A DNA stretch of 64,000 bases, taken from Bacillus sp. es.036 (GTDB lineage Bacteria; Bacillota; Bacilli; Bacillales; Guptibacillaceae). This document shows, in pieces, positions 10,149 to 54,956 of this stretch (its first letter is position 1; each line of letters opens with the position of its first letter). The notes under the pieces were generated by a model. The model was not told the DNA's origin and did no database searches. It saw only the letters and a program-made list of their open reading frames with translations. The stretch lies in contig NZ_PDIZ01000001.1 of NCBI RefSeq assembly GCF_002563635.1, positions 1,426,001 to 1,490,000 of the forward strand. The letters run 5' to 3'. The translations under genes were made by a program, and so were the position numbers.

Positions 10149-11516
10149 ATGAAGCTTTCAGTCATACATACGAACGATATTCATAGTCACTTTAACAACT
10201 TCGCTAAAGCATCATCACTTATTCGGGATTATGCAGATGAACACACGCTAGTGTTAGATGGTGGGGACTTTGCTGATTTTAAAAGTATCGAGCTTCAGGG
10301 AACACGAGGGATTGGTGCAGTGAAGATGTTGGAATCGACCGGTTACGACGCGATTACGATAGGTAATAATGAACTATTTAATGGAAATGATACATTAGAG
10401 CATATGGCGGTTCAGAGCACGGTACCGTTCATTAGTTGTAATCTTCTAAAAGCTAATGGTGAATCGTTCAATGGAGTATGCAGTAGTACGATTCTAATTA
10501 AAAATAAACTTCGCATTTTAATTACGGGTGCTTCTCCAGATTTACAAGAGTTCAATGATTTGATGGGCTTTCAAATTTTAGATTATGTAGAAGCGATCAG
10601 AGCAGAAATCAAGAAGCAACATGGAAACTATGATGTTTGTATTGTTTTAAACCATGTTGGTACACAAGCAGATATCGAATTAGCTGAAGCCATCGATGAA
10701 ATTGACTTGATTTTGTCCGCACATGACCACTTCCTTTATGAGGAAGCAAAAATAGTGAATAATACGATACTAAATTCAGCTGGTATGTATGGTGAACATA
10801 TTGGAATTATTGAAGTTGATGTCTCAAATGAAGGCGTAGAACTACTAGCTTCTTCTACCATATCAACAGCTAACGCGGTTGAAGATAAAGAAATACAAAA
10901 TATATTACAAGTAAGTAGGGAAGAAGCAATCGCTCAGCTAAGTAAACCGCTTTATGCTGTTAGCAAACCATTGTGGCATGACGTACTTGAGGAAAACCCG
11001 ATGACTAATCTAATCGCAGATGGGTTGAAAGACCGTTTTGATTGTGATCTTGGGCTTATAAACAGCGGAATTGCAAATGGCGGTCTCGTCGACTATGTTT
11101 CCAATAAAAAGTTAATTGAAATTTGTCCATCTCCACTAAATCCTACATACTTTGAAATTCTAGGAAAAGACCTTTACTCAGCTCTTGAAAGTTCATTAAA
11201 TAGCTCGGTTTGTATGGCTGATGGAAAAGGACCTGGTTTTCGAGGGAAGTATGTAGGACGGCTTCATGTATCTGGTGCAAAAATTCAACATAATCAAAAT
11301 CAAATTAAGATGATTACGATTAACGATGAAGCTTTCGATCCCGACCGGTGGTATCGTGTAGCTTCATCAGATTACTTGCTAAGAGGTTCTGGGTATCCAG
11401 AGCTAGCAAACAATCGAAACTTTCATTATCAACCAGATGAAATAAAAGATGTTATTAGAGAATACGCCGAGAAGGAAGCTTTCGTAACAAATGCTTACAA
11501 GAAGCGTTGGGTGTAG
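10149..11516 (+). CDS. yunD: YunD-like metallophosphoesterase/5'-nucleotidase
   Basis: A 455-aa two-domain protein. The N-terminal calcineurin-like metallophosphoesterase has HTNDIHSH (7-14), DGGDF (about 37), GNNE (about 77), NHVG (about 175) and AHDHF (about 196) as metal and phosphate ligands. The C-terminal 5'-nucleotidase domain binds the nucleoside. There is no signal peptide, so unlike UshA it should be cytoplasmic, as YunD is in B. subtilis. RBS CTGGGGGAC. It stands alone. Confidence 0.85.
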   Translation: MKLSVIHTNDIHSHFNNFAKASSLIRDYADEHTLVLDGGDFADFKSIELQGTRGIGAVKMLESTGYDAITIGNNELFNGNDTLEHMAVQSTVPFISCNLLKANGESFNGVCSSTILIKNKLRILITGASPDLQEFNDLMGFQILDYVEAIRAEIKKQHGNYDVCIVLNHVGTQADIELAEAIDEIDLILSAHDHFLYEEAKIVNNTILNSAGMYGEHIGIIEVDVSNEGVELLASSTISTANAVEDKEIQNILQVSREEAIAQLSKPLYAVSKPLWHDVLEENPMTNLIADGLKDRFDCDLGLINSGIANGGLVDYVSNKKLIEICPSPLNPTYFEILGKDLYSALESSLNSSVCMADGKGPGFRGKYVGRLHVSGAKIQHNQNQIKMITINDEAFDPDRWYRVASSDYLLRGSGYPELANNRNFHYQPDEIKDVIREYAEKEAFVTNAYKKRWV

Positions 11517-11614
11517 ACTATTTCCGTCTTAAGTCGGAGTAGCTCGTACTCTAGCCGTTTCCAGAAAAAGAAAATGAATCTAAAACTTAGTCCACATCGA
11601 AAGGAAGAAGATAA

Positions 11615-12742
11615 ATGCGCGACGAACGATTAAGTCAGTTAGCTAAGACGCTAGTCCATCACTCCATTGAAGTTAAGATTGGTGAACGCGTGATGGTGAC
11701 GGGTCATCAAATTGCCAAACCGTTAATACGTGAAATCATTAAGGAGATTTATGCAGCTGACGGGGTGCCATTTGTTGAATTACGTGATGATGAAATAGAC
11801 GTTCACTTGGCTGAATTTGCAACACAAGAGCAAGCAGAGATTCAAAAAGGATGGTATGCGAAACAACTAGAAGATGTTCAATCCTTTATTCACATTCGAG
11901 CTGAAGAAAATGATGCGACATTGTCAGAGCTTGCCTCTGATGCAATGAAACTGTATGGAGAAGTTTTCAAAGAGATCGACCATAAAATGGTGAATGAAAG
12001 AAAGTGGGTACTTCTTGATTATCCAACGCCAGCAGCAGCACAAAAAGCAAAAATGGGGACACTTACTTATCAAGATTATTTGTTTGAAGTGTGTAGTCTT
12101 GATTATAAACGAATGGCGAAAAAGCAGCTGCCGCTTTTTGATTTAATGGAAAAGACTGATCGAGTAAGGATCGTTGCACCTGGTACGGATCTCTCATTTT
12201 CTATTTTAAATATCCCAACTATCGCTAGCCACGGAAAGAAAAACATTCCTGATGGAGAAGTGTTTACATCACCCGTACGCGAGAGTGTAAATGGCGTTAT
12301 TTCATTTAATACACCTTGTTCGTATCGAGGGATTACCTTTCACAACGTAAAATTAACGTTGGAGAAAGGTAAAATTGTCCATGCGGAAGCTGATCAAACA
12401 GACAAACTGAACGAGATCTTAAATCTTGACGAAGGAGCACGCTATATTGGGGAATTTGCTATCGGATTGAATCCACTAATTAATCATCCAGTAGGGAATA
12501 CCTTATTTGACGAGAAAATAAATGGTAGTATCCATTTTACGCCTGGACAAGCTTATGATAATGCAGACAATGGAAACCGCTCAATGATTCACTGGGATAT
12601 GGTTTTGATATTACGGAATGAGTATGGTGGGGGAGAACTGTATTTTGATGATCAACTCATTCAAAAAAATGGGGTTTTTATGACAGATGAGTTGCTTGAT
12701 TTAAACCCAGAAAATCTTAATCAAAAAGAAGCAGTACGCTAA
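11615..12742 (+). CDS. M29-family aminopeptidase (AmpS/PepS type)
   Basis: A 375-aa thermophilic-type metallo-aminopeptidase that removes N-terminal residues from peptides in the cytoplasm. Typical segments are VRIVAPGTDLSFSI near 190, NIPDGEVFTSPV near 212 and TLFDEKINGSIHFTPG near 300 with metal-ligand Glu and His, and IHWDMVLI near 330. The family is usually 370-415 aa, so this is full length. RBS AAAGGAAGAAG. The gap of 98 bp from yunD has no obvious promoter, so cotranscription is possible. Confidence 0.85.
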   Translation: MRDERLSQLAKTLVHHSIEVKIGERVMVTGHQIAKPLIREIIKEIYAADGVPFVELRDDEIDVHLAEFATQEQAEIQKGWYAKQLEDVQSFIHIRAEENDATLSELASDAMKLYGEVFKEIDHKMVNERKWVLLDYPTPAAAQKAKMGTLTYQDYLFEVCSLDYKRMAKKQLPLFDLMEKTDRVRIVAPGTDLSFSILNIPTIASHGKKNIPDGEVFTSPVRESVNGVISFNTPCSYRGITFHNVKLTLEKGKIVHAEADQTDKLNEILNLDEGARYIGEFAIGLNPLINHPVGNTLFDEKINGSIHFTPGQAYDNADNGNRSMIHWDMVLILRNEYGGGELYFDDQLIQKNGVFMTDELLDLNPENLNQKEAVR

Positions 12743-47018: not shown

Positions 47019-47571
47019 GCACGTTGAAATAGATCAAGAATATAAAACCATCTCCTTTTCTGAAGTGAGCTTTGAACGTGATGTACATATGATCCATCGG
47101 TGGATGAACGAAGCACATGTTTTCCCATTCTGGCAATTAAATATACCGTTAAAAGCCTATAAACGTCATTTGCTGAAAGCATTAAAAGACAAGCATCAGA
47201 ATCTTTACCTCGGTCTTATAAACAACGAACCAATCAGCTACTGGGAAGCTTACTGGGTAGAAGGAGATATCATGGAAAGCATGTATGAAAATAAACCTTA
47301 TGACCAAGGTATTCATCTCTTAATTGGAGAAACAGACTTCCTTGGTAAGGGATACGCCCTTCCGCTTCTTCGAGAAATGGTGTCTTTACAACTAAAGGAG
47401 AAGAGGACAAAAAGAGTGATTGCTGAACCAGACATTCGAAATAAGAAAATGATTCATGTGTTTGAAAAATGTGGCTTTAGGCCGCAAAAACCGATTAAGC
47501 TTCCTGATAAAACAGGATTATTAATGATTTGTGAGCGTGATCAGTTTGAAAGGAAGTGGAGGAATGAGTGA
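47008..47571 (+). CDS. rhbD: Siderophore acetyltransferase (RhbD/IucB-like GNAT)
   Basis: A 187-aa GNAT of the IucB/AlcB family (RhbD). It acylates the hydroxylamine of N-hydroxydiaminopropane. The family signature HRWMNEAHVFPFWQLNIPL (about 30-48) and HLLIGETDFLGKGYALPLL near 100 (CoA loop GKGYA) are present. RBS AGGAGG. It overlaps the previous gene by 11 bp and the next by 8 bp. Confidence 0.88.
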   Translation: MAYKHVEIDQEYKTISFSEVSFERDVHMIHRWMNEAHVFPFWQLNIPLKAYKRHLLKALKDKHQNLYLGLINNEPISYWEAYWVEGDIMESMYENKPYDQGIHLLIGETDFLGKGYALPLLREMVSLQLKEKRTKRVIAEPDIRNKKMIHVFEKCGFRPQKPIKLPDKTGLLMICERDQFERKWRNE

Positions 47572-48886
47572 ACACGTATATGATGCCATTGGCATAGGGA
47601 TTGGACCATTTAATCTGGGTTTTGCTGCCCTAACAGACGAGCTTGATGAGGTAGATGTCCTTCTGTTTGATCGGAAAGAAGCGTTTGATTGGCATCCTGG
47701 AATGCTGATTGATGGAACCACTTTACAAGTACCATTTTTCGCTGATCTGGTCAGCATGGCTGACGTAAAAAACAAATTTAGCTTTCTAAACTACTTACAA
47801 ATTCAACATCGCATGTATCATTTTTATTTTTTGGAAAAGTTTCATATCCCTCGAAAAGAATACAATCACTACTGTCAGTGGGTATCTAAGCAACTTGATT
47901 CTTGCCGATTTGGTTATGAGGTGGTGGATGTTTCACTACATCAATCAGGAAAAGGAGAATCTGTTTATCTTGTGCAAGTTCAGCATGTTAGAACACTAGA
48001 AATTGACACGTTCCTTACAAAACATCTCGTGATGGGGATAGGCTCAGTACCTTCCGTTCCTAAACCATTCAAGTCTATGCTCAGTGAAACGATTTTTCAT
48101 TCATCAGATTACATGGAGAAGAAACAGCGAGCTGTACAAGGGAAATCGATTGCTGTCGTCGGCTCAGGTCAGAGTGCAGCTGAGATCTTTTTAGACTTAG
48201 CTAAAGAGCAGGAAAAGCACAATTATGAATTAAGCTGGTATACAAGATCAAACGGGTTTTTCCCAATGGAATATTCAAAACTTGGTCTAGAATATTTTTC
48301 ACCAGATTACACGGACTTCTTTTACAGACTTTCACAAGAAAAGAAAGATGGGCTACTGAAAGATCAAGCATTGCTTTATAAAGGAATTAGCGCGGAAACG
48401 ATTTCTGAGATCTATGATGTTTTATATGAGCAATCGATTGGAAATCAACTGCCGGCTCATCTACAAGCAATGAGCCAAATAAACCATCTGGAGATGAATG
48501 AAGAGGTATGCATCGTGCAAGGAAGTCATACCGTGACAAAGGAATCGTTTGATTTTGAATCTGAAGTCATCATTCTTGGTACTGGCTACACACAGAACAT
48601 GCCAAGCTTCTTGCCAGAATCCCTATTAAATAAAGATCAAAAAAATCGTCTTGAAATTACAGAAGATTATCGTTTGAGCACGAAACATAACAGTAATAAT
48701 GAGATTTTTGTACAAAACGGTGAACTTCACACTCATGGGGTTGGGGCACCTGACCTTGGGCTTGGCGCTCATCGAAACGCCGTGATTATTAATCAAATCG
48801 CTAACAAAGAAGTGTATCCCGTTCAGCCCCAAAATGTCTTCCAATCTTTTGGAGTGGTCAAAAAACCTGTATTAACAACTAATTAG
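47564..48886 (+). CDS. rhbE: Lysine/ornithine N-monooxygenase family (diaminopropane N-hydroxylase)
   Basis: A 440-aa flavin N-monooxygenase of the IucD/SidA family, here expected to hydroxylate 1,3-diaminopropane. The FAD motif GIGIGPFNLGFAAL is at about 8-21, the NADPH motif VVGSGQSAAEIF near 203 and the C-terminal DLGLGAHRNAV near 400. The start is ATG 47564 after GTGGAGG; the longer frame from GTG 47531 lies inside the previous gene without a ribosome site. Confidence 0.92.
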   Translation: MSEHVYDAIGIGIGPFNLGFAALTDELDEVDVLLFDRKEAFDWHPGMLIDGTTLQVPFFADLVSMADVKNKFSFLNYLQIQHRMYHFYFLEKFHIPRKEYNHYCQWVSKQLDSCRFGYEVVDVSLHQSGKGESVYLVQVQHVRTLEIDTFLTKHLVMGIGSVPSVPKPFKSMLSETIFHSSDYMEKKQRAVQGKSIAVVGSGQSAAEIFLDLAKEQEKHNYELSWYTRSNGFFPMEYSKLGLEYFSPDYTDFFYRLSQEKKDGLLKDQALLYKGISAETISEIYDVLYEQSIGNQLPAHLQAMSQINHLEMNEEVCIVQGSHTVTKESFDFESEVIILGTGYTQNMPSFLPESLLNKDQKNRLEITEDYRLSTKHNSNNEIFVQNGELHTHGVGAPDLGLGAHRNAVIINQIANKEVYPVQPQNVFQSFGVVKKPVLTTN

Positions 48887-48900
48887 AAAGTGGTGAACGT

Positions 48901-50703
48901 ATGTATTTTGATAAAGACTTAGATCGTATTTTATCAAAAGAAAGCTGGGAACGAGTGAATCATAAACTTCTCGGAAAAATGCTTTCAGAATTTATGTACG
49001 AGGACATGATTACACCTGAAATCATTCAAGAACAAGAAAATCATAGCCTTTTTGAGCTACGTGTTTCTGCCAAGAAAACATATCAGTTCCGTGCAGCAAC
49101 TCGTCTATTTGATAGTTTCGACGTTGATTGGAAATCGATTCGTCTCTTTTCGGACGGAAAAGAAGTGAAGGTAGGAGCCATCGCTTTCCTTCTTGATATT
49201 CAACCGCTGATCGGTATGTCGGCTGAAACGACAGCTCACTTAATAAAAGAAATCAATCAAACCCTTATTGCAGATGCTCATCTGTTATCAAATCGCATCT
49301 CCTCTGATGATTTAGTTGAGGAAGACTATGCTAGATTAGAAGGCTACATGACTGGTCACCCTTGGATCACCTATAACAAAGGACGGATTGGATTTGGCTA
49401 CGATGATTACTTGGACTTTGCCCCTGAACATCAGAATGAAGTAAAGCTTTCCTGGATCGGGGTTAGTCGTGAAATAAGCTCTTTTCAATCCGTTAACGAT
49501 CTAACTTTTGATGCGCTCATAAATTCTGAGCTTAGTCATGATGACCTTCGAAATTTCAAGGAGATTTTACTATCCAAAAGGCTAGATCCTAGCAACTTCC
49601 TCTTCATGCCAGTTCATGAGTGGCAGTGGAAAAATGTTTTGATTCAGAATTTTGCAGAAGAAATTGCGAATCAAGCGATTGTACCGCTCGGGGAATCTAG
49701 TGACTCTTACCTTCCTCAGCAATCCATACGGACGTTTGTCAATCAATCTCATCGAGACAAGCATCATGTTAAGTTGCCAATGAGCATTTTAAATACTCTC
49801 GTCTATCGAGGTTTACCTACAGAACGAACGCTCATCGCACCGCAAATCACCGAATTTATAAAAGGAATCTATGAAAAAGACTCGTTCTTAAGAGAGGAAT
49901 GTAACGTTATCTTACCAGGTGAAATTGCGAGCATTAACGTTGACCATCCTTATTATCAAAGGCTTGAACATGCACCGTATCAATACAAAGAAATGCTTGG
50001 GGTTATTTTTCGTGAAAGCATCTACACATACCTCGAAGAAGGAGAACAAGCCATTACATTAGCCGCATTGCTATATGAAGACCATGACGGTAAAGCCTAT
50101 ATTCAAAGTATGATTGAAAAGTCAGGGATTTCGACACAAGAATGGGTAACTCAATTTTTTGATGTCACGATGAAACCGCTGCTGCATTATTTGTACCAGT
50201 ATGGCACGGTCTTCTCGCCGCATGGACAAAACACCATTCTCGTATTGAAAGAGTACAAACCGTGCCGACTCGCTGTAAAAGATTTCGTAGATGACGTTAA
50301 TATTAGTGATCAATCATTCCAGGAGTTAAGTAGACTGTCACACGAGTTAAAAACGGTTCTTCGCAGTGAACCACCAGAGGGACTTACGCAATTTATTTTC
50401 ACAGGATTATTTATTTGTCATCTGCGCTATTTAACAAATATTCTAGAGCACAACGAAATGATGTCTGAAGATAAATTTTGGAAAATTCTCGCGGAAACGA
50501 TTCATGCCTATCAAGCTAGGTTTCCTCACTTAGAAGAACGGTTTAAGCTATTTGATTTCTTCCAACCATCATTTACGAAGCTATGTCTCAATCGAAATCG
50601 CATGGTCCAAGAAGGTTATTCGTCTGGTGATGATCGGCCCCACGCATCCGAATTCGGTAAAGTAAACAATGCACTTTCTTATTATAAAGGAGTAACAAAA
50701 TAA
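48901..50703 (+). CDS. rhbF: IucA/IucC-family NIS siderophore synthetase, second
   Basis: A 600-aa NIS synthetase, the second condensing enzyme. GHPWITYNKGRIGFGYDDY (about 154-172) and FMPVHEWQWKNVL near 238 precede the NTLVYRGLPTERTL segment near 298 and the ATP-binding HGQNTILVLKEYKP near 442. Two synthetases of this kind, as in rhizobactin 1021 loci, add the two amine arms to citrate. RBS GTGGTGA. A hairpin follows before the next gene. Confidence 0.92.
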   Translation: MYFDKDLDRILSKESWERVNHKLLGKMLSEFMYEDMITPEIIQEQENHSLFELRVSAKKTYQFRAATRLFDSFDVDWKSIRLFSDGKEVKVGAIAFLLDIQPLIGMSAETTAHLIKEINQTLIADAHLLSNRISSDDLVEEDYARLEGYMTGHPWITYNKGRIGFGYDDYLDFAPEHQNEVKLSWIGVSREISSFQSVNDLTFDALINSELSHDDLRNFKEILLSKRLDPSNFLFMPVHEWQWKNVLIQNFAEEIANQAIVPLGESSDSYLPQQSIRTFVNQSHRDKHHVKLPMSILNTLVYRGLPTERTLIAPQITEFIKGIYEKDSFLREECNVILPGEIASINVDHPYYQRLEHAPYQYKEMLGVIFRESIYTYLEEGEQAITLAALLYEDHDGKAYIQSMIEKSGISTQEWVTQFFDVTMKPLLHYLYQYGTVFSPHGQNTILVLKEYKPCRLAVKDFVDDVNISDQSFQELSRLSHELKTVLRSEPPEGLTQFIFTGLFICHLRYLTNILEHNEMMSEDKFWKILAETIHAYQARFPHLEERFKLFDFFQPSFTKLCLNRNRMVQEGYSSGDDRPHASEFGKVNNALSYYKGVTK

Positions 50704-52418: not shown

Positions 52419-53402
52419 ATGAAGTATCGAAAGTTAGGACAAACCGACTTAAAGGTAAGTGAAGTTAGTTTTGGAACATGGGCGATTGGCGGAGCGTGGG
52501 GCAAGACAAATGACGCCCTAGCTCTCGAATCACTTCAATACGCCATCGATGCTGGCGTTAATTTCTTCGATACGGCAGATGTATACGGAGATGGTCATAG
52601 TGAAGAGCTTTTAGCTAAAGCGACAAAGGGACAGGAAGATAAGATCCATATTGCAACAAAATTTTGCCGTGCAGGAGATATCTATGATCCAGCTACTTAC
52701 TCTGAAGAAAGTGTACGTTCTTACTGTGAAGTGAGCTTAAAACGATTGGAACGCGATCAGATTGATCTGTTTCAAATCCACTGTCCGCCAATTGAAATAG
52801 TAAAAGATGGAGCTGTATTTCAAGTATTAGATAAGTTAAAAGCAGAAGGAAAAATCCGTTATTACGGTGTCAGTGTCGAAACCATTGAAGAAGGGCTACT
52901 ATGTCTTGAATATCCAGGCGTAAGCACATTGCAAGTTATTTTCAACCTTTTTAGACAAAAACCTTTAGAAGAGTTATTTCCTAAAGCGCATGAACAAGGG
53001 GTTGGAATCCTTACTCGTGTGCCGCTTGCAAGTGGTTTATTAACTGGGAAATTCAAGAAAAACTCATCATTCGAAGAAGATGATCATCGTCACTTTAATC
53101 GAAACGGAGAAGCCTTTAATGTTGGGGAAACCTTTGCAGGGATTGAATTTGAAAAGGGCGTTGAATTAAGTAGTGAAATCGATTGGATTGCTCGTGATCG
53201 TGAGAGTATGACAACCGCAGCCTTAAAATGGATCCTTGAACATAAGGAAGTCTCTTGTGTAATTCCTGGCTTTAAAAATAGTGACCAGGTGAAACAGAAC
53301 CTTAAAGCGGTAGAAGTTCCTGATTTTACGAAAGAAGAGATGGAGAAGCTTAAAGCGTTCTATGAGCAAGAAGTTCATGGACTAATTAGAGGAGCTTATT
53401 AA
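52419..53402 (+). CDS. Aldo/keto reductase
   Basis: A 327-aa NADPH-dependent oxidoreductase with the (beta/alpha)8 barrel. The catalytic tetrad is seen as Asp in FFDTADVYG (about 50), Tyr in the same segment, Lys in IATKFCRAG near 87 and His in FQIHCPP near 126. It belongs to the YghZ/YhdN-like group without a strict substrate. RBS ATGGAGGG. It ends 22 bp before the OsmC-family selenoprotein gene, so the two are very likely one operon. Confidence 0.88.
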   Translation: MKYRKLGQTDLKVSEVSFGTWAIGGAWGKTNDALALESLQYAIDAGVNFFDTADVYGDGHSEELLAKATKGQEDKIHIATKFCRAGDIYDPATYSEESVRSYCEVSLKRLERDQIDLFQIHCPPIEIVKDGAVFQVLDKLKAEGKIRYYGVSVETIEEGLLCLEYPGVSTLQVIFNLFRQKPLEELFPKAHEQGVGILTRVPLASGLLTGKFKKNSSFEEDDHRHFNRNGEAFNVGETFAGIEFEKGVELSSEIDWIARDRESMTTAALKWILEHKEVSCVIPGFKNSDQVKQNLKAVEVPDFTKEEMEKLKAFYEQEVHGLIRGAY

Positions 53403-53424
53403 ATAAAGGAAAGGAGTTTTAAAG

Positions 53425-53889
53425 ATGGCAAATCCAATTGAAATTGCTAATATTCGAATTGAGCAGGATAAAGATAAAAGCCGGCGAGCTTATATCGCTG
53501 ATTTCAAAGAACCTATACACTATGGAGTACATGGTGGTGTAAAAGATTTTTACAAAGCCACACCGGAGGTAGAACAACCCTCGACCCTCGATCATATTGT
53601 TGCAGCAGCTGGCGGCTGACTAACCGGTACATTATCCGGTGCGCTGGAAGCGCGCCACATACCAACTTATCCAAATAAGGTATCAGGAAAGTTTGAAGGA
53701 ATCATTGAAGCGCCAGATGGCGTTCTTAAAATCACAAAAATTCGCTGTCACTATAAGTTAATTATTCCTTCTGAGAAGCGGAATGCAGCTGAAAGAGCGC
53801 TTAATGTGTTTGAACGAGGATGTCCTGTAGCACAAACGTTAAAAGGCTCCGTCGCTTTTGAACATGATTGGGAGATTATAGAAGAATAA
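53425..53889 (+). CDS. OsmC-family peroxiredoxin, predicted selenoprotein (Sec65)
   Basis: A full OsmC/Ohr-type reading frame of 154 residues, interrupted only by TGA at 53617-53619 (codon 65). Before it: DHIVAAAGG, the usual run-up to the first catalytic Cys. After it: LTGTLSGALEA and, 68 residues on, ERGCPVAQTL with the second conserved Cys at 133. E. coli OsmC has Cys59 and Cys125, 66 apart. Sec in place of the first Cys would make a peroxide- or organic-hydroperoxide-reducing selenoenzyme. A SECIS-like hairpin starts 18 nt later. RBS AAAGGAG. A simple nonsense mutation is the alternative, but no other damage is seen. Automatic callers would give only 53425-53619. Confidence 0.82.
53638..53656 (+). 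promoter_or_regulatory. SECIS-like hairpin within the OsmC coding sequence
   Basis: GGTGCGC (53638-53644) and GCGCGCC (53650-53656) form a 7-bp stem (one G-U pair) with the loop TGGAA. The loop starts 25 nt after the TGA and has G at its second position. Known bacterial SECIS elements have a small apical loop with G among the first two bases, about 16-37 nt past UGA. The hairpin is far more GC-rich than the DNA around it. Confidence 0.72.
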
Positions 53890-53891
53890 AC

Positions 53892-53929
53892 GAAAGGCTG
53901 ATGAATAAAACCATTCATCAGCCTTTCTT
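53892..53929 (+). terminator. Intrinsic terminator of the AKR/OsmC operon
   Basis: GAAAGGCTGATGAAT (53892-53906) and ATTCATCAGCCTTTC (53913-53927) form a perfect 15-bp stem; the U tail is short. Confidence 0.75.
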
Positions 53930-54068: not shown

Positions 54069-54956
54069 TTATTTCAGCTCAACAACCGGTTCAGCTAGAT
54101 TAATAAACTCTTTCACAGCAAAAGGCAAATATTTATTTCGTTTCCAAATCAATCCGAGTTCTAAGTTTAAATTAGAATGTCTAAGCTTTAACGTTTTAAT
54201 CCTCTCATTATGAATTGAATTGGCAATTTTACTCGGTAGAAGTGCAATACCCAGTTTCGCTTCTACCATTTCAATCATAAAATCTTTTTGTGAGCTTTGA
54301 CATACGATGTTAGGATAAAATTCATTCTTCGAGCATTCTTCTAGAATTCGATCATATAAAGTGAAGTCATCTCGATACAAAATAAAGGACTCATATTCGA
54401 GATCAGCAAGGTGGATTTCAGAGTACACTGCTAACGGATGCTCATCATGAACGATTAACATGAGTGGATCTTTGATAACCTGTATTGCTTCAAAACTACT
54501 ATTTTTTAAAGGTGTGTTACAGATCAATCCAATATCAAGAGAACCGTCATCAACGCCTTGTTTTATCATTTTGGACCCTACTTCAGTGAGTAGGATTTCT
54601 ACTGTAGGATAAAGTGCCTTAAACTGGCTGATTATCTTTGAAAAAAAAGCTGCACCGATGATAGGAGGAATCCCGATTTTGATTTCCCCTTTTTTTAATT
54701 CTGTAATATCTGAGAGCTCTGCTGTTAGGTTTTGAAAAGCATGAAGAACATGCTTGGCATTGACCAAAACAGCCTTACCAGCATCAGTCAATTCTAATTG
54801 CTTAGAACGATAGAAAAGGGGGATGCCAAGCTCTGTTTCTAGATTCTTGATGGCTTTACTAATCGATGGTTGTGACACATGAAGTGTCGATGCTGCTTTT
54901 GTAAAACTTAGCTGTCTCGCCACTTCTGAAAAATACTCAAGATGACGAATCTCCAA
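54069..54956 (-). CDS. LysR-family regulator divergent from malate synthase
   Basis: A 295-aa LysR protein of the CidR/YwbI type. The HTH lies at about 15-40 (SFTKAASTLHVSQPSISKAI in part), and an effector domain of about 200 residues follows. It is divergent from the malate synthase G gene, with inverted repeats in between, so it probably controls the glycolate cluster in response to a C2 acid. The evidence is positional. Confidence 0.85.
   Translation of the reverse strand: MEIRHLEYFSEVARQLSFTKAASTLHVSQPSISKAIKNLETELGIPLFYRSKQLELTDAGKAVLVNAKHVLHAFQNLTAELSDITELKKGEIKIGIPPIIGAAFFSKIISQFKALYPTVEILLTEVGSKMIKQGVDDGSLDIGLICNTPLKNSSFEAIQVIKDPLMLIVHDEHPLAVYSEIHLADLEYESFILYRDDFTLYDRILEECSKNEFYPNIVCQSSQKDFMIEMVEAKLGIALLPSKIANSIHNERIKTLKLRHSNLNLELGLIWKRNKYLPFAVKEFINLAEPVVELK

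Follow-up and report, generated by a model that had tools for sequence, protein, structure and literature searches.

A predicted UxxG-type OsmC selenoprotein of Bacillota with selenocysteine at the reactive cysteine position

Introduction

OsmC-like selenoproteins are already in print. In the available parts of the marine surveys, the Sargasso Sea tables give three sequences with the motif UxxT, and the GOS table row for the OsmC-like selenoprotein gives 5 (PMC1088965, PMC2398784); such proteins also appear in the accessible text of PMC9312934. A 2026 review distinguishes, in the portion available, 119 selenoprotein families or subfamilies with one OsmC entry, PF02566 with UxxT, and the word OsmC occurs once in its main text (PMC13188914). 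An OsmC subfamily with the motif UxxG is absent from that list of 119 families as far as the accessible part of the review goes (PMC13188914). By word search, OsmC goes without mention in the main text of deep-Sep (PMC12013277) and in the accessible text of a 2016 survey (PMC5029168), and we found no mention of a UxxG subfamily in the available portions of the literature on OsmC, bacterial selenoproteins and SECIS elements. For Bacillales, a 2006 survey counted 3 selenoproteins in its available part (PMC1794560).

Here we describe a locus, osmC-Sec, in a window (the whole 64,000-nt stretch of Bacillus sp. es.036 DNA that was analysed) for which an earlier note, made from the letters alone, had predicted a selenocysteine (Sec)-containing OsmC-family protein. 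Its product has the OsmC/COG1765 family and Sec in common with the marine OsmC-like selenoprotein, whose prediction from metagenomes the note had rightly mentioned (PMC1088965, PMC2398784, in the parts available). The two differ in motif: the marine form is published as UxxT, whereas UxxG was found in all Sec stretches examined (ULTG, ULVG, ULSG, ULAG, UMYG and UMFG), so the forms are set apart by the published motif and not by sequences. They also differ in their described sources, marine metagenomes for the UxxT form and Bacillota, many of them cultured, for the form reported here. To judge from motif and published description, as far as the available text of these sources reaches, the UxxG form in Bacillota appears to be new.

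Results

The frame, its internal TGA and the OsmC fold

The TGA at codon 65 is the only internal stop in the frame running from ATG 53425 to TAA 53887-53889 (Table 1), as the earlier note had read it. The in-frame TGA is real, and mechanical ORF calling ends the gene at codon 64. Directly 3' of the TAA lies a 16-pair hairpin (53892-53927), listed as terminator-like on the minus strand; it fits the LysR-type gene at 54069-54956 (-) and may serve both genes.

Table 1. Coordinates of features at the osmC-Sec locus in the window
Feature	Position	Strand	Basis or remark
Aldo/keto reductase (AKR) gene, 22-nt gap to osmC-Sec	52419..53402	+	Pfam PF00248; upstream neighbour in this clade, no conserved partner
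AAGGAG, likely ribosome-binding site	53411..53416	+	From sequence; precedes ATG 53425
OsmC-family selenoprotein gene (predicted)	53425..53889	+	154 codons plus TAA, Sec codon 65; Pfam PF02566; 59 relatives
TGA, codon 65, predicted Sec codon	53617..53619	+	Replaces first reactive Cys; TGA in 59/59 relatives; profile alignment to PDB Cys
bSECIS-type hairpin, 7 pairs, apical loop TGGAA (53645-53649)	53638..53656	+	Folding, pattern, conservation, fit to bSECIS model
Cys133, presumed resolving Cys	53821..53823	+	Invariant in the 30-sequence alignment A1

When the translated product was scanned, with Sec treated as Cys by the programs, the Pfam OsmC model matched residues 51-147 with 47.5 bits against a cut-off of 27.5. 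The best fold model has a mean pLDDT of 92.0 and a pTM of 0.84; the other four models are weaker (mean pLDDT 63.5-74.8). In a structure search with this predicted fold, 46 of the 50 matches listed are named OsmC, Ohr or similar, and the remaining four (1ml8, 2egt and 2ql8 twice) are unnamed or called 'putative redox protein'. The Pfam score and the predicted fold both place the protein in the OsmC superfamily. None of the NCBIfam models listed reaches its cut-off in nine members of the group. The best is TIGR03562, with 34.8 of 85.8 bits; NF041052 (OsmC_like_Se, 'OsmC-related (seleno)protein') matches residues 50-148 of the window protein weakly and gives 20.9-26.7 bits in seven of the nine and no match in two (L143 and L146), against a cut-off of 95.

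A single-protein phmmer search of the PDB gave no match at 0.001. A profile built from alignment A1 (30 sequences: the window's own plus 29 from the 59 related loci described below) matched five PDB sequences at E <= 0.01, the four aligned structures scoring at most 28.1 bits. In the alignments to 1ml8, T. thermophilus OsmC (1ukk) and E. coli OsmC (1qwi and 1nye), all of them Cys proteins, residue 65 falls on the first reactive Cys and Cys133 on the second, and the fold is common to all. The best sequence match, 1ml8, is entered as 'hypothetical protein (crp region)' and is not an Ohr; we take it to be E. coli YhfA. The earlier note had placed the TGA at the first reactive Cys and the second conserved Cys 68 residues on, and both statements hold. 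By these alignments, the two-reactive-Cys arrangement of the superfamily is present, with the first Cys apparently replaced by Sec.

Conservation of the TGA and selection on the frame

Relatives were collected in one scan of genome contigs from 84,980 species, by a method that finds close relatives alone. It returned 59 relatives, 58 to 98% identical, and every one of them has TGA at codon 65, so that the in-frame TGA is conserved at the redox Cys position. Judged by record titles, the hosts are Pseudalkalibacillus, Alkalihalobacillus, Cytobacillus, Mesobacillus, Rossellomorea, Fictibacillus, Planococcus, Planomicrobium, Alkalicoccus, Marinithermofilum and others of Bacilli type. Two loci, L035 and L065, are titled Chryseobacterium sp. 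ISL-80 and Pseudomonas sp. ISL-84, yet have Bacilli-type sequence at the locus and are probably mislabelled.

In comparisons of the window with 12 loci, dN/dS for the part downstream of the TGA, hairpin excluded, was 0.04-0.18 in the eight unsaturated loci; values before the TGA were similar (0.06-0.08 in the five computable loci, with L016 showing no amino-acid change). Judged by these ratios, the frame downstream of the TGA is under purifying selection.

Distribution beyond the close relatives

A search of 397 genomes from the window's order gave matches at E <= 1e-10 in 50. Forty-five of them carry intact frames, 46 genes in all, and every gene contains a single TGA. The remaining five comprise G085, in two pieces; G349, G265 and G197, partial; and G234, a 126-residue open frame of 45.3 bits. 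In the class set (398 genomes), 35 genomes match at E <= 1e-6, of which 13 hold 15 intact frames, all with one TGA; three of these 13 are also in the order set, the order, class and phylum sets overlapping in part. The others comprise the broken G085, G486 with a match over 33 positions, and stop-free open frames of at most 41.6 bits. From the phylum set (398 genomes) came five frames in four genomes that lie outside the class; they score 114-254 bits, and each has one TGA. The most distant of the four genomes is G1112, and 154 genomes from its class yielded three TGA forms at 114-135 bits, one of them in a genome already in the phylum set, and one open frame at 37 bits.

Four weak open frames (L125, L126, L127 and L151) all have Cys at the Sec place. 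Gene remnants aside, TGA-free open OsmC frames in the order and class sets score at most 45.3 bits, versus 210-285 bits for intact Sec forms, which supports a Sec-only subfamily; no close Cys form of osmC-Sec was found in the genomes searched. No plasmid copy was matched in PLSDB, and of 28 viral stretches that matched a pattern none was confirmed.

The broken or partial matches G085, G349, G265, G197 and G486 are probably remnants of repeated loss. Two gene copies, both with TGA, occur in Marinithermofilum abyssi (L028 and L032) and in each of G019, G462 and G794.

A conserved hairpin downstream of the TGA

The earlier note had put a seven-pair hairpin with loop TGGAA 25 nt after the TGA. Its pairs and loop stand, but the 25 nt separate the TGA from the loop, and the stem already starts 18 nt downstream. 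For the 20 nt at 53638-53657 the folding energy is -14.3 kcal/mol (z -4.14), with none of 200 shuffles as good; a longer fold of 45 nt from the TGA stands out less (z -1.82, 12/200 shuffles as good). The bSECIS model, as quoted in the available part of PMC13188914, calls for a loop of 3-9 nt with G in the first two places, 16-37 nt from the UGA, and an energy of -7.5 kcal/mol or lower. With a loop TGGAA (or GGA if a U-A pair forms) at 25 nt and its energy of -14.3 kcal/mol, the hairpin lies within every one of these limits (PMC13188914, in the portion available), as the note had judged. No Rfam family reached its gathering score in a scan of the window.

The hairpin pattern occurs once in the window, versus 0 expected from shuffles. 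Written as GGYGCGCTGGNNGCGCG, it is kept in 58 of the 59 related loci, so that both features the note had proposed checking in relatives, codon 65 and the hairpin, are conserved. It is also found in L082-L123 (42/42), L143-L148 (6/6) and L150, many of these being the same genes fetched twice and L101 the window itself; L149, with GCA instead of GCG in the stem, does not match. The exception among the 59, L074 5001-5451 (Cytobacillus oceanisediminis CGMCC 1.10115), has lost 11 nt at two GCGCG repeats, which removes half of the hairpin and shifts the frame, through either natural decay or an error made in sequencing across a strong hairpin. The state of the frame in relatives, which the note had also wished to see compared, thus favours a selenoprotein overall, although L074, G085 and the partial remnants show that a small number of the more distant copies are broken.

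The six inner pairs form in 59/60 distinct stretches and the seventh in just 30/60; in this count 24/105 loci gave no stretch, one strand having been read, and a two-strand pattern search finds the hairpin in all 24. No two-sided compensatory change was seen in the six inner pairs because the amino acids fix most stem letters, and the structural case therefore rests on third codon positions. Ala73 and Ala76 are GCG in 59/59 sequences (the window and L016-L073, with L074 left out), where the share of GCG elsewhere in osmC-Sec genes is 0.14. In the window and L016-L073, Leu74 is CTG in 59/59, which fixes a loop G, and the third positions of Gly72 and Arg77 are C or T alone, the letters that pair with their partners. 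Compared outside the hairpin, these 59 sequences form 43 groups with <85% nucleotide identity between them.

Sec machinery and its tie to the gene

The host's own genome (4.34 Mb, 3 contigs) has a tRNA-Sec at C1:1228113-1228205, scoring 59.4 bits against a cut-off of 47 and also called by ARAGORN, with anticodon tca. It further contains selB at 1228716 (360.7 bits), selD at 1233150 (409.9 bits) and selA at 1234489 (564.8 bits). The tRNA-Sec, selA, selB and a TGA-containing selD lie within ~8 kb. The components required of the host of a bacterial selenoprotein, as the earlier note had foreseen, are all present. The selD gene (G000:C1:1233150-1234070, equal to L081 about 11043-12150, minus strand) is itself a TGA gene, with KGGUGCK and a short hairpin soon after the TGA.

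SelA exceeds its cut-off in 181/397 genomes of the order, which does not bear out the note's remark that selenoproteins are rare in Bacillaceae. All 45 intact carriers have SelA (weakest E 3.1e-150), versus 136 of the 352 other genomes of the order, the 136 including the five listed above that have gene pieces or another OsmC. The Fisher p for this tie is 1.5e-17, a value that ignores kinship, with 14 of the 45 carriers from one genus. No intact copy was found among the 216/397 order genomes without SelA over the cut-off.

In the own genome, the formate dehydrogenase alpha gene has no internal stop. A TGA-containing formate dehydrogenase alpha at E <= 1e-100 occurs in 8 of 45 carriers and is absent in 37, the own genome included. 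Control genomes with SelA but no intact osmC-Sec, 45 taken out of 136 by lowest handle number and not at random, have it in 10 of 45 cases. The Sec-type enzyme is therefore uncommon in both groups, which differ little.

Gene neighbourhood

The earlier note had taken the AKR gene upstream and osmC-Sec for a redox unit. The same AKR adjoins osmC-Sec in only four closely related loci (L016, L018, L020 and L023) out of 59, and the AKR upstream in L027 is a different one, 25% identical. None of the remaining upstream neighbours scanned is related to this AKR. With ORFs of at least 80 codons and a crude script, a co-directional ORF ending <=150 nt upstream was found in 26/59 loci. Ten of these 26 were Pfam-scanned and gave a decarboxylase, AKR, MgtE, DAG kinase, GNAT, STAS, aminotransferase, DsbA, BrkB and Glu/Leu dehydrogenase. 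We rejected a conserved operon, the ten neighbours scanned being of ten different kinds. With this variety and the AKR in 4/59 loci, osmC-Sec is best regarded as a stand-alone gene whose context gives no substrate, and the proposed redox unit falls.

In a genome of another class, a CMD-domain gene (L146 685-1482, 35.7 bits) ends directly before the osmC-Sec gene; we take its Pfam family to be that of AhpD. Further upstream in the window lie siderophore-type genes (47531-50703), with an IucA/IucC family gene at 48901-50703 and a frame at 47531-48886 that by eye resembles an N-monooxygenase.

Discussion

The same TGA arrangement recurs in many related bacteria and thus looks like that of a real selenium protein. 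It is very probable that 53425-53889 encodes a selenoprotein of OsmC fold in which UGA is read, by way of the hairpin, as Sec65. The central proposal of the earlier note is strongly supported by these sequence comparisons; its interpretation as a whole holds in part, the redox unit and the rarity of selenoproteins being the two side claims that fail. We propose that SelB with Sec-tRNA would decode the UGA as selenocysteine, directed by the mRNA hairpin, and that translation would continue to the TAA ending at 53889. Sec65 would sit on the helix where OsmC and Ohr proteins hold their peroxide-attacking Cys, with Cys133 as partner. Most likely it would attack a hydroperoxide or a related electrophile to give a selenenic acid, which would form a selenenylsulfide with Cys133, to be recycled by a cellular dithiol. 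The gene seems to stand alone and to stay intact solely in SelA hosts, in the order searched for both, and to be broken in some lineages.

As to its role, we favour a peroxidase-like selenol enzyme with some confidence, by analogy with the OsmC/Ohr reactive pair that Sec65 and Cys133 match. The protein could instead be a selenoprotein but no peroxidase, for instance a selenol carrier, an enzyme that detoxifies electrophiles or a protein handling sulfide or persulfide, a reading that we hold less probable but worth serious consideration. Peroxidase activity is not assured, because the position of the catalytic Glu of Ohr, which we take to lie ten residues before the Cys, corresponds by count to Leu55. 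The acidic residue nearby is Asp56, at -9 from Sec65, as in 1ml8 (PSPMEMVLMAAGGC). That the best PDB sequence match is not an Ohr, and that no conserved neighbour points to peroxides, also speaks for a non-peroxidase. Against it, Sec65 and the second Cys are placed as in OsmC, and the distant member L146 follows a gene of what is presumably the AhpD family.

Low-level UGA readthrough occurs in bacilli, and a near-cognate tRNA could place another residue, such as Trp or Cys, at position 65. We consider this highly improbable: the 216 order genomes in which SelA does not exceed its cut-off gave no intact copy, the hairpin agrees with the bSECIS model and plain readthrough needs none, and the site is that of the reactive Cys. 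Just as improbable is an ordinary stop, in a decayed OsmC gene or one with a 64-residue product, which would agree with the mechanical ORF call and with the broken or partial copies in some genomes but which we reject on the TGA shared by all 59 relatives and the purifying selection after it, with the tie to SelA and the conserved hairpin also against it.

With UGA read as Sec, the osmC-Sec product may be a main Sec user in its hosts. More tentatively, the Bacillota OsmC subfamily could be purely of the Sec form, lacking a close Cys counterpart, and it, rather than formate dehydrogenase, could be a main reason for many bacilli to retain Sec machinery. The 37 of 45 carriers without a TGA-containing formate dehydrogenase alpha lend support to the latter idea.

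These observations define, among cultured bacilli, a well-supported subfamily of predicted selenoproteins. Standard gene calling would truncate osmC-Sec at codon 64, and searches for Cys/Sec pairs may have missed the subfamily because close Cys forms seem to be lacking. Two questions become testable with it: what leads bacilli that lack a Sec-type formate dehydrogenase to retain selA, selB, selC and selD, and for what reason an OsmC enzyme would require selenium.
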